This document shows, one piece after another, positions 30,015 to 35,448 of a stretch of DNA of 44,062 nucleotides (positions are counted from its first letter, which is position 1; each line of letters begins with the position of its first letter). The position numbers and the translations under genes are program-made. This stretch comes from Sulfurospirillum sp. (GTDB taxonomy: Bacteria; Campylobacterota; Campylobacteria; Campylobacterales; Sulfurospirillaceae), in contig JAERRW010000071.1 of NCBI GenBank assembly GCA_016735235.1, positions 1-44,062 of the forward strand, read 5' to 3'. The notes beneath the pieces were generated by a model. That model saw only the letters and a list, made by a program, of their open reading frames with translations. It was not told where the DNA came from and did no database searches.

Positions 30015-31558
<1,544 letters not shown>

Positions 31559-32524
31559 ATGCTGAAATTAGTACTGCAAAAAATATCTTATGTGGTACTA
31601 ATGCTTTTAATAATATGTGTCATCTCTTTTGGAGCTATCAATATGGCTCCAAACTCTTTTTTTGCTAGTGGGGAACTCAACCCCAATATTACCGCAGAAT
31701 CGTTGGAGCAACTCAAAAGGGTTTATGGTTTAGATAAATCTTTAATAAATCAATTTATATCATGGATAAGTGCTGTAGTTCGTTTAGATTTTGGAATCTC
31801 GTTTGCAAGTGGAAAAAGTGTACATGAAGAGATATTTTCTAGACTTCCAGTAACTCTATTTTTAAATTTAGTTAGCTTAATTCTAGTCTTCTCTATCTCT
31901 ATGTTTTTAGGTATTAAGTCAGCTTTAAATCAACAAAGTAAATTTGATAAGCTTGCAAAACAATTTTCACTTCTTTCTTATGCTATGCCCTCTTTTTATC
32001 TTGCACTTATTTTTGTAATATTTTTTAGTGTAAAATTAAGTATATTTCCTATCTCTGGACTTCACTCAATTGAAGTTAAAGATGGTTTTGAATATTATCT
32101 TGATTTTGCTTGGCATCTTGTTTTACCTATATTTGTAATGGTTTTTGGTGGTATTGGAAGTCTTACTATGTATATAAGAAGTTTAACCTTAGGTGTTTTA
32201 AAAAGTGATTATATCTTTTTTGCACTCTCTCGTGGCATTAAAGGAAAAAAACTTTTTAAGTATTTTATCTTGCCAAATATCGCTCCTCCTATAGTTACTA
32301 TTTTAGGTCTGTCGCTCCCGGGATTAATTGGTGGAAGTGTTATTTTAGAGTCAATTTTTGCTATCAATGGCATGGGGCTACTGTTTTTTCAAAGTGCTCT
32401 TAGTCGTGATTATCCCGTTATCATGGGAGTTCTTATTATATCGGCATTTTTAACACTACTAGGAAATATCATGGCAGATTTGGTTTTACTTAAACTAAAC
32501 CCTCACTTTAAAAACTCTAACTAA
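31559..32524 (+). CDS. DppB/OppB-type ABC transporter permease, isolated
   Basis: 321 residues with about six membrane segments. The N-terminus LQKISYVVLMLLIICVISFGAINMAPN, then LKRVYGLDKSLINQFISWISAVVRLDFGISFASGKSVHEEI, is the peptide/nickel permease start. The EAA-type loop ALSRGIKGKKLFKYFILPNIAPPIVTILG lies near 225-255. Such permeases work with a DppC-like partner, two ATPases and a binding protein, none of which is here. It begins directly after the fabI stop. Its stop is 2 bp from the stop of the convergent restriction gene, so the partner genes may have been displaced or never present. Confidence 0.85.
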   Translation: MLKLVLQKISYVVLMLLIICVISFGAINMAPNSFFASGELNPNITAESLEQLKRVYGLDKSLINQFISWISAVVRLDFGISFASGKSVHEEIFSRLPVTLFLNLVSLILVFSISMFLGIKSALNQQSKFDKLAKQFSLLSYAMPSFYLALIFVIFFSVKLSIFPISGLHSIEVKDGFEYYLDFAWHLVLPIFVMVFGGIGSLTMYIRSLTLGVLKSDYIFFALSRGIKGKKLFKYFILPNIAPPIVTILGLSLPGLIGGSVILESIFAINGMGLLFFQSALSRDYPVIMGVLIISAFLTLLGNIMADLVLLKLNPHFKNSN

Positions 32525-32526
32525 GG

Positions 32527-33600
32527 TTAAAATCTAAGTTGTAAATTCAATTTGAAATAATTCTTAGTTTTATCTTGAATTATAGCTCCAAACCCATGTC
32601 GTGATGTAGACGGTGTATCTAATTTAATATTTTCAAATAAATAATCTTTTAGGTTCTCTATATCTATAATATGAAATGTAATTAAATTGCCATTTTCTTT
32701 AACAACTATTGTTCCATGGCTCTCATAAGAACCATCCCATTTTGTACCAGCGAAAAAGCCTAACAATATATCAACAAGAAACTTTTTTAACTTATTAATT
32801 AACATAGCTTTATCGTCTATATCTAAATGAGTTAATATATTTGTGTTATTACATAAGTGTTCTACAATATCAGATAATTTAGAGATTCTATTTCCGTAAA
32901 AAGTTATTAACAGATAACCAATAATGCTGGGTAATGCACTATCAACCATTTTCAAATTGTAATTCATAGTGTCTTTTTCAGCCTTTAAATAGCTAAATGT
33001 ACCACCGTTTTTAGTTATAGCCTCTATTTTATCTTTGAGCTTAGTTTTTGTAGAAATTCTGTTAATTTTATCTATTTTAGAATCATCTAAACCGTTAATC
33101 TCAAATATAAAATTTGTATTACCAGAAGCATTTAATAAAGTCGGCTTACTTCCTAAATATGATTTTATACCAAAACCCTCATTTTCTTTAACAAATGTAC
33201 TATGCTCTATATCTAAAACAATATCTGCCTTTTGAGAACTATTACCACCCTTAACAATACTAAAACCTAATGCTGTTTGTATTACTTCAAAATCATTTAT
33301 TTCAAAAGTTCCACTTCCATTTTTAATCTTATGGAGAATATTAGCTAATGAAACATCATTAATAATACTACTTATATCTATTTCTATTTCTTCTTTGCTT
33401 GTTTTATTGATAGATTTAATCTTAATATCACTTAATGGTACAAAATCTAAATATAAATTTTCTGTTGTTATCTTATTAATTTTAAAATAATCTCCCGTAG
33501 GATTTAAATCTTTATCCGATAGCAATAGTTTTTGTTCTAGCAATAATTTTATAAAAGTGAACAGTTCTGTCCACTCACTTTTATTTTTACTCTTTTTCAT
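32527..33600 (-). CDS. HpaII-family type II restriction endonuclease (predicted)
   Basis: 357 residues from the chosen start, matching HpaII family size. Remembered family blocks include NKSEWTELFTFIKLLLEQKLLLSDKDLNPTGDYFKI at the N-terminus, GFGIKSYLGSKPTLLNASGNTNFIFEI near 145-170 and the NYFKLNLQLRF end. HpaII cuts CCGG; specificity here is inferred. The nuclease follows a truncated C5 methyltransferase gene. The ORF track starts at 33630; ATG at 33600 (MKKSKNKSEWTEL) has AAGG about 7 bases upstream, while the earlier ATG has none. The frame looks intact, so activity without protective methylation is a puzzle. Confidence 0.75.
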   Translation of the reverse strand: MKKSKNKSEWTELFTFIKLLLEQKLLLSDKDLNPTGDYFKINKITTENLYLDFVPLSDIKIKSINKTSKEEIEIDISSIINDVSLANILHKIKNGSGTFEINDFEVIQTALGFSIVKGGNSSQKADIVLDIEHSTFVKENEGFGIKSYLGSKPTLLNASGNTNFIFEINGLDDSKIDKINRISTKTKLKDKIEAITKNGGTFSYLKAEKDTMNYNLKMVDSALPSIIGYLLITFYGNRISKLSDIVEHLCNNTNILTHLDIDDKAMLINKLKKFLVDILLGFFAGTKWDGSYESHGTIVVKENGNLITFHIIDIENLKDYLFENIKLDTPSTSRHGFGAIIQDKTKNYFKLNLQLRF

Positions 33601-33646
33601 TGTCTTACCTTTTTTATTAAGATTATTCATATACTATATTAAATTA

Positions 33647-34066
33647 TTACCTACTGTTTTTATTGTGATTAACTAAACCCCTAACATTCTCTAAAAAAAA
33701 TGCTTTTGGTCTTTTAACTTTAATAATCTCTGCTATATCAAAAAATAAGTTTCCTCTTTCGGATTTATGATTATCATCAAAACCATATTTTTTACCCGCC
33801 TGACTAAATGGCTGACAAGGAAAACCCGCACACAACAGATCAAAATCAGGTATTTCTTCAGTCATAATAGTTTTTATGTTTTGATTAAATAGTCCATTTT
33901 TAAATAACTTTGGTGAGTGAGTGCTAAAATTATATTGGTATGTTTTTCTAGCATTAGTATCTATTTCCGAAGCAAATACACATTTTCCGCCTAATTCATG
34001 CATAGATTGATGAAACCCACCAATACCAGCAAACAAATCTATAAATGTAAATTTTTTATTGCTCAA
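33647..34066 (-). pseudogene. Truncated C5 cytosine DNA methyltransferase (N-terminal half)
   Basis: 139 residues, against about 350 for M.HpaII-like enzymes. Present are motif I TFIDLFAGIGGFHQS, motif IV FPCQPFSQAGKKYGF with the catalytic Cys, and motif VI FFLENVRGLVNHNK. After NHNKNSR comes TAA, and the nuclease gene begins 46 bp further. The target-recognition domain and motifs VIII-X are missing, and the gap is far too small to hold them in another frame. The simplest reading is a deletion, leaving an inactive fragment. The start is TTG at 34066 with only a weak ribosome site. Confidence 0.85.
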
Positions 34067-34145: not shown

Positions 34146-35249
34146 TTACTCGCCACCAAATAAGTCTGATAGTGCATTAGAATCTTTTGTGGGTTCGCAT
34201 TCACCACTTTTGCCTTCTAATTCTACTAACTCTATATCCATATTGACTAGCATAGAAGTTAAGCGAATATTGATTCCGCTTTTACCTATTGCTTTTGATT
34301 TTTGGTCAACTGGAAGGGTTACTATCGCTTTGTTATCTACAATTTTTACATTTGAAATGATAGCAGGACTTAATGCTCGTGAAATAAAAATTTCTGGTAT
34401 GGTTGAGTACTCTATGCAATCTATATTCTCTCCATTTAACTCATGGCTAACTGCATTGATTCTCATTCCTTTAGTTCCTACAGTTGCTCCAACGGCGTCT
34501 ATATTTGGATGAAGTGATGTTAGTGCAACTTTAGCTCTCTCGCCGGGTATTCTTGCACTTGCATTAATAATTACCATTTCATCTTTAATTTCTGGAACCT
34601 CAAGAGCTAAAAGTACTTCAAGAAACTTTGGGCTTGTTCTTGAAATTTCAACATTAATGCCATGTATTTTATCTATAAAAACTTTTCTAATAACAGCTTT
34701 TACTACATCTCCGACTTTAAATATTTCGCCTTTTATTCTATTTTTTCTTGGCATAATCGCACGAACTTCATCAAGTTCTACATAAGTTGTTTCTTCGTTA
34801 TCTACTCTTATTACTGTTCCAAAAATACTTCCACCTATCATGTTTTTATATTTATTAAATATTTGGTTTTCAAGCAATCTTTGTATATGAAATTCTAGTT
34901 CTCTATGAAGAGTTGCAGCAGCGGTGCGACCAAGATTATCTAGTGGTAGCTCATAAGTAAGTTCATCGCCAACTTCTATATTTGGATCAACTTTTTTTGC
35001 TTCTGTTATACTGGTAAGCTTATCTTTTTCATCTTCAAGTCTTTCATCACTATCTTCTACAACAAGGATTTTTTGAAAAAGTGTTAATTTTTTTGTATCT
35101 GTATCTATTACAGTTTCATAATCATAATCCTCGCCATATACATTTTTAGCTGTTTTTGTTAAAGCTATGCAAACTGTATTTTTTACATCCTCTATATTTA
35201 GATCTTTTTCGTGTGCTATTGATTCTATAATATCTATAATTTTTTCCAT
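34146..35249 (-). CDS. nusA: Transcription termination/antitermination factor NusA
   Basis: 367 residues from the chosen start. An N-terminal RNA polymerase-binding domain (about 1-125), an S1 domain (about 130-195, GGSIFGTVIRVDNEETTYVELDEVRAIMPRKNRI), and two KH domains (ISRTSPKFLEVLLALEVPEI..; AVGATVGTKGMRINAV and KAIGKSGINIRLTS) are visible. It lacks the E. coli acidic repeats, as is usual outside gammaproteobacteria. The track start is moved 8 codons to ATG at 35249, which has AAGGGTG upstream. It is divergent from the HP0268-like gene, as in C. jejuni. Confidence 0.94.
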   Translation of the reverse strand: MEKIIDIIESIAHEKDLNIEDVKNTVCIALTKTAKNVYGEDYDYETVIDTDTKKLTLFQKILVVEDSDERLEDEKDKLTSITEAKKVDPNIEVGDELTYELPLDNLGRTAAATLHRELEFHIQRLLENQIFNKYKNMIGGSIFGTVIRVDNEETTYVELDEVRAIMPRKNRIKGEIFKVGDVVKAVIRKVFIDKIHGINVEISRTSPKFLEVLLALEVPEIKDEMVIINASARIPGERAKVALTSLHPNIDAVGATVGTKGMRINAVSHELNGENIDCIEYSTIPEIFISRALSPAIISNVKIVDNKAIVTLPVDQKSKAIGKSGINIRLTSMLVNMDIELVELEGKSGECEPTKDSNALSDLFGGE

Positions 35250-35448
35250 AATTTCACCCTTATGTTTTAGCAATATAACTTTGAATACGATTTTAGAAAT
35301 TGCTTTTAGAAAGAAGATTAAAATTATATCTTAAATATACTTTTAATAACTTTAATAAGGAATTTATTGAAATATTGATATACTATTTTAACTTACCAAA
35401 GTTGTGATGAATTTTTAAAATTTACTTTTGAAAAAGGGAACAAATAAG

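Follow-up and report, generated by a model that had tools for sequence, protein, structure and literature searches.

The HpaII-type restriction gene and the truncated methyltransferase (MTase) gene beside it in this Sulfurospirillum contig are probably a recent pseudogene of a single-chain methyltransferase-restriction endonuclease (M-R) fusion, in which the MTase lesion probably silenced the nuclease as well. Both ORFs lie in the 44,062-nucleotide stretch of DNA analysed here (the window; Table 1). Comparison with their relatives indicates that they were once one gene for a single M-R protein, and we regard this fused ancestry as established. A sequence-only reading of the window had described a decaying island with a complete nuclease and half a methyltransferase; that description stands, but it missed the origin of both ORFs in one gene.

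Table 1. Features of the M-R locus and its flanks, with positions in the window.
Feature	Position	Strand	Detail
fabI	30734-31558		Pfam
ABC permease	31559-32524		Pfam
HpaII-family restriction endonuclease (REase) half	32527-33630	minus	367 aa counted from the first ATG; no break in the frame
Second in-frame ATG (codon 11) with weak SD-like AAGG	33598-33612	minus	anti-SD duplex -4.0 kcal/mol
Nonsense codon (TAG) in the frame of the ancestral fusion	33634-33636	minus	nuclease ATG two codons further on; L035 and L037 have TCG
C5 MTase N-terminal remnant	33647-34066	minus	139 aa; starts at TTG and includes motifs I to VI
Deletion junction	33656-33662	minus	about 435 bp (about 145 codons) gone relative to L033-L037; frame not kept
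nusA	34146-35273	minus	Pfam

A truncated methyltransferase and its fused relatives

The MTase remnant matches PF00145 over positions 1-120 of 324 (E 1.9e-44), which bears out the earlier observation that the companion C5 methyltransferase stops after motif VI and has no target-recognition domain (TRD). The remnant retains motifs I, IV (GFPCQPFS) and VI (ENV) but lacks VIII, the TRD, IX and X, and is thus not a functional C5-cytosine DNA methyltransferase, a class with motifs I-X and a TRD. It is 82-86% identical at the nucleotide level to the close fused relatives. The deleted span starts directly behind motif VI, reaches almost to the final MTase codons and comprises motif VIII, the TRD and motifs IX-X; being out of frame, the deletion makes the methylase stop at TAA 33647-33649. 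At the scar, the final codons of the ancestral methylase survive in the frame of the nuclease and read K-T-V-G-N-N-L-I-(TAG)-Y-M, compared with K-A-V-G-S-N-L-I-x-Y-M in the relatives. At least two lesions therefore lie upstream of the open nuclease frame, and the window, as a broken derivative, no longer has the single-chain M-R architecture (Type IIC by architecture).

A scan of GTDB genomes for the REase returned 16 loci, 12 of which (L033-L037, L039-L044 and L046) have this single-chain architecture, a single ORF of about 650-720 aa encoding both M and R (in L044 the contig ends within the ORF); fusions also occur in further genomes beyond these. The C5 MTase (~300 aa) comes first and the HpaII REase (~360 aa) second, about 660 aa together, and in the four fused loci tested by Pfam, PF00145 is N-terminal and PF09561 C-terminal. 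The recorded hosts are Sulfurimonas, Sulfurovum, other Campylobacterota, Bacteroidota, and MAGs labelled Gracilibacteria or proteobacterium. In the REase tree, the fused members group in a single clade (98/96) that includes the window, which is next to L045 (98/96). None of five genomes from the same genus has a PF09561 match, and these sister genomes thus lack the system.

Decay is also seen in related copies. Only the last 203 REase residues are left in L045 (91% identical to the window), the copy in L038/L052 is frameshifted, and a transposase gene sits inside the REase in L047/L048. The more distant relatives L012-L015 and L053 have separate, slightly overlapping M and R genes. In L051, the methylase resembles the fused ones in its C-terminal region but ends at a stop, and its REase is a separate gene with a strong SD, a layout that suggests the fusion may have formed through loss of the stop between tandem M and R genes. 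We found no relatives of the fusion on viral contigs, and the HpaII REases in plasmid and phage records were all distant, with identities of 36% or less.

The insertion site

The pair shares the strand of nusA and sits 80 bp downstream of it; its 3' end is 2 bp from the convergent permease gene. Pfam agrees with the flanks named from the sequence alone (fabI/permease and nusA), and the proposal of an inserted R-M island in decay is supported. Permease-nusA spacing can be as little as 2 bp in other genera (L023, L031). The nusA-permease gap is occupied in two sister genomes by a different gene of ~200 aa (L019:2403-3002, L021:779-1387; the L021 copy has no Pfam match), and hence this spot may be a preferred insertion site.

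No terminator was predicted in the interval between nusA and the pair, and the pair may therefore be transcribed.

Probable loss of both activities in one step

In the history that we favour, a fused gene for an N-terminal C5 methyltransferase and a C-terminal HpaII-type REase would have entered between nusA and the permease gene. An out-of-frame deletion of ~435 bp took motif VIII, the TRD and motifs IX-X from the methylase, and the TAG arose just upstream of the nuclease part. As the nuclease would have been translated as the C-terminal portion of this one chain, the M lesion would have cut it off from its normal translation start and most likely removed both activities in one step; with protection and toxicity lost together at the first lesion, the cell would have survived. 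The nuclease frame is still open owing to the recent break. The intact fusions are probably functional, and the REase of the window is probably no longer made at an active level. A silent nuclease was among the options of the sequence-only reading and is the one favoured here, now with a mechanism drawn from the fused ancestry; the silence itself is what we infer.

The first ATG after the scar (33630) has no SD (anti-SD duplex +1.7 kcal/mol), and the RNA fold around the nuclease start is no more stable than shuffles. The second in-frame ATG is near the start position of stand-alone HpaII REases, and with its weak SD-like sequence it may allow some reinitiation; the corresponding duplex in the two-gene relative L051 reaches -9.5 kcal/mol. 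Several intact fusions (L033-L037) also have an SD-like sequence and an ATG inside the fused gene, just upstream of the REase half and near the stand-alone REase start. A separate REase product may thus be translated from intact fusions, which would weaken the polarity argument.

CCGG sites and protection by other methylases

In E. coli that lacks the methylase, HpaII-type REases are toxic (PMC8099122). CCGG occurs 18 times in the window and 89 times in 334 kb of its own genome (observed/expected 0.71), and we can thus reject a CCGG-free genome. An active, unprotected nuclease should be lethal here; it must be silent, inactive or covered. GGCC and GCGC are avoided in the same 334 kb (observed/expected 0.37 and 0.38, respectively), in agreement with the NgoPII and HinP1I systems present.

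A covered nuclease would be made in active form from the internal ATG while another methyltransferase of the genome protects CCGG. The R frame, open and constrained in the past, the weak SD at codon 11 and possible read-through from nusA would all fit, and distant MTase partners have been predicted for solitary REases in 57 cases (PMC3488263). However, of the six other C5 MTase loci found in the genome with PF00145, five adjoin REases of other families (EcoRII-C-like, SacI-like, NgoPII, HinP1I and Eco47II, the Eco47II-type methylase being broken), and the sixth, on contig C7, adjoins a 274-aa ORF without a family assignment. This last ORF sits in a genome that strongly avoids ACGT (31 observed vs 169 expected in 334 kb), with observed/expected ratios of 0.79 and 0.88 in two sister genomes. 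The best match of the six to HpaII-locus methylases is about 40% identity, and none of the three that were aligned has the TRD of the fused or stand-alone HpaII-locus methylases. We therefore consider a covered nuclease unlikely. The search for a second M.HpaII-like gene, as suggested from the sequence alone, thus points to no protective CCGG methylase among the C5 MTases; the genome also has five clear N6/N4 MTases and one that is end-cut, and an N4-cytosine MTase might protect CCGG. Rescue by an intact copy elsewhere is rejected, as the PF00145 search of the 99.95% complete assembly gave no other copy of this methylase.

The C5 MTase and 274-aa ORF on contig C7 are a candidate ACGT system.

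The nuclease half

The nuclease frame had been called complete and HpaII-like, and both descriptions hold, with exact coordinates: the 367-aa protein matches PF09561 (RE_HpaII) over positions 1-359 of 359 with 371.5 bits (cut-off 25; E 6.5e-111). A full-length match of this strength is not due to chance and places the protein in the HpaII family of Type II REases; the family assignment, on which the sequence-only reading had staked itself, thus held in a profile search at 371 bits. The prototype of the family is an orthodox palindromic enzyme. CCGG is probably the target of the nuclease, and of the fusion.

In the family alignment, the window REase retains most conserved positions; the deviations are G18S and R201K, at residues invariant in the other aligned members. 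Two more changes, K346G and T349A, fall at positions conserved among the close fused relatives. We found no defect in a known catalytic residue. The predicted structure has a pLDDT of 87, and a PDB fold search with this model, aimed at the active site, returned no match with E < 0.16. These four substitutions could mean that the nuclease is made but inactive, its open frame a mere leftover, yet R201K is conservative and the conserved stretch around D136 and K156 is unchanged; we find such inactivation by point changes quite improbable.

A recent break and a second broken fusion

Between the window and its relatives, dN/dS is 0.14-0.17 for the REase and 0.07-0.15 for the MTase remnant, and the changes private to the window are 9 synonymous and 2 non-synonymous in the REase and 6 and 2 in the remnant. 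The remnant cannot work, yet it is as constrained as the REase, and so the divergence mostly predates the break. From the low dN/dS of this dead remnant, we conclude that the break occurred recently; no present selection is then needed to explain the open R frame. Selection for the REase after loss of the methylase is unsupported, the remnant being equally constrained.

Another M-R fusion in the same genome is of Eco47II (GGNCC) type (C29:37784-39424; L006, L068) and lies next to an integrase-core ORF. Its M is broken by frameshifts and a stop and its R frame is open, with a dN/dS of 0.11 for M and 0.13 for R. Intact relatives of this type, L106:1372-3186 (605 aa) and L108:1372-3219 (616 aa), each have a C5 MTase and an Eco47II-family REase in a single ORF, indicating that m5C M-R fusions arose in more than one REase family. 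Both fusions found in this genome therefore have a broken M and an open R, although two cases are too few for a rule.

Such a repeated pattern might be expected if the nuclease had been retained for a new, methylase-free role, for example as a solitary defence or toxin gene, and solitary HpaII-like REases of possibly changed function have been discussed for Bacteroides (PMC3488263). However, at neither locus is the REase more tightly constrained than the dead M remnant, and recency suffices to explain the open frames; a new role is very unlikely. We give just as little credence to an assembly or consensus error in a strain that holds an intact fusion: the genome is a draft of 106 contigs, but the deletion is clean and out of frame, a separate TAG lies in the ancestral frame, and the fusion's methylase has no second copy in the near-complete assembly.

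Fused genes and known restriction-modification systems

Two-gene R-M systems are protected from being lost by the killing that follows their loss. If the pair in the window is a recent pseudogene of a fused gene, natural m5C-MTase-REase fusions might instead be fail-safe: a truncating lesion in the N-terminal methylase would also silence the nuclease, the system would be lost without killing, and pseudogenes with a broken M and an open R would be seen more often. We offer this tentatively, as possible rather than probable. It turns the apparent paradox of a live nuclease beside a dead methylase into a testable idea on how fused R-M genes die.

Full-length REases beside inactive MTases have already been catalogued, in 74 cases (Ershova 2012; PMC3488263). 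The window resembles these, but its pair was once a single-chain fusion, and that origin offers a reason for the cell's tolerance of the loss. It also shares an HpaII-family REase next to a C5 MTase with the two-gene systems HpaII, FpsJI of Flavobacterium psychrophilum (PMC11837570) and Kat-HpaII (PMC8099122), whereas its M, now truncated, and its R come from a single fused ORF. The methylases of the fusions lack the long TRD found in their counterparts at the two-gene loci L012-L015.

Natural Type IIC/IIG enzymes, most of which have an N-terminal REase, a gamma-class MTase and distance cutting according to PMC4081073, also carry R and M on one chain; in the fused relatives, however, a C5 MTase precedes a REase of the HpaII family. 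The literature searched held no description of a natural m5C-MTase-HpaII single chain (REBASE, outside this search, may list such fusions), and the part consulted of a 2014 Type II review describes no natural single chain of an m5C methylase and an orthodox Type II nuclease. An m5C MTase and an orthodox Type II REase have been joined in one polypeptide by engineering, as RM.Eco29kI (2011, PMC3039593), and its authors suggested that natural m5C fusions could exist. The fusions described here differ in being natural, with M before R and an HpaII-type REase (the window copy being broken), and they bring to notice a predicted group of single-chain m5C methylase-orthodox Type II nuclease proteins, a combination foreseen by the Eco29kI work.
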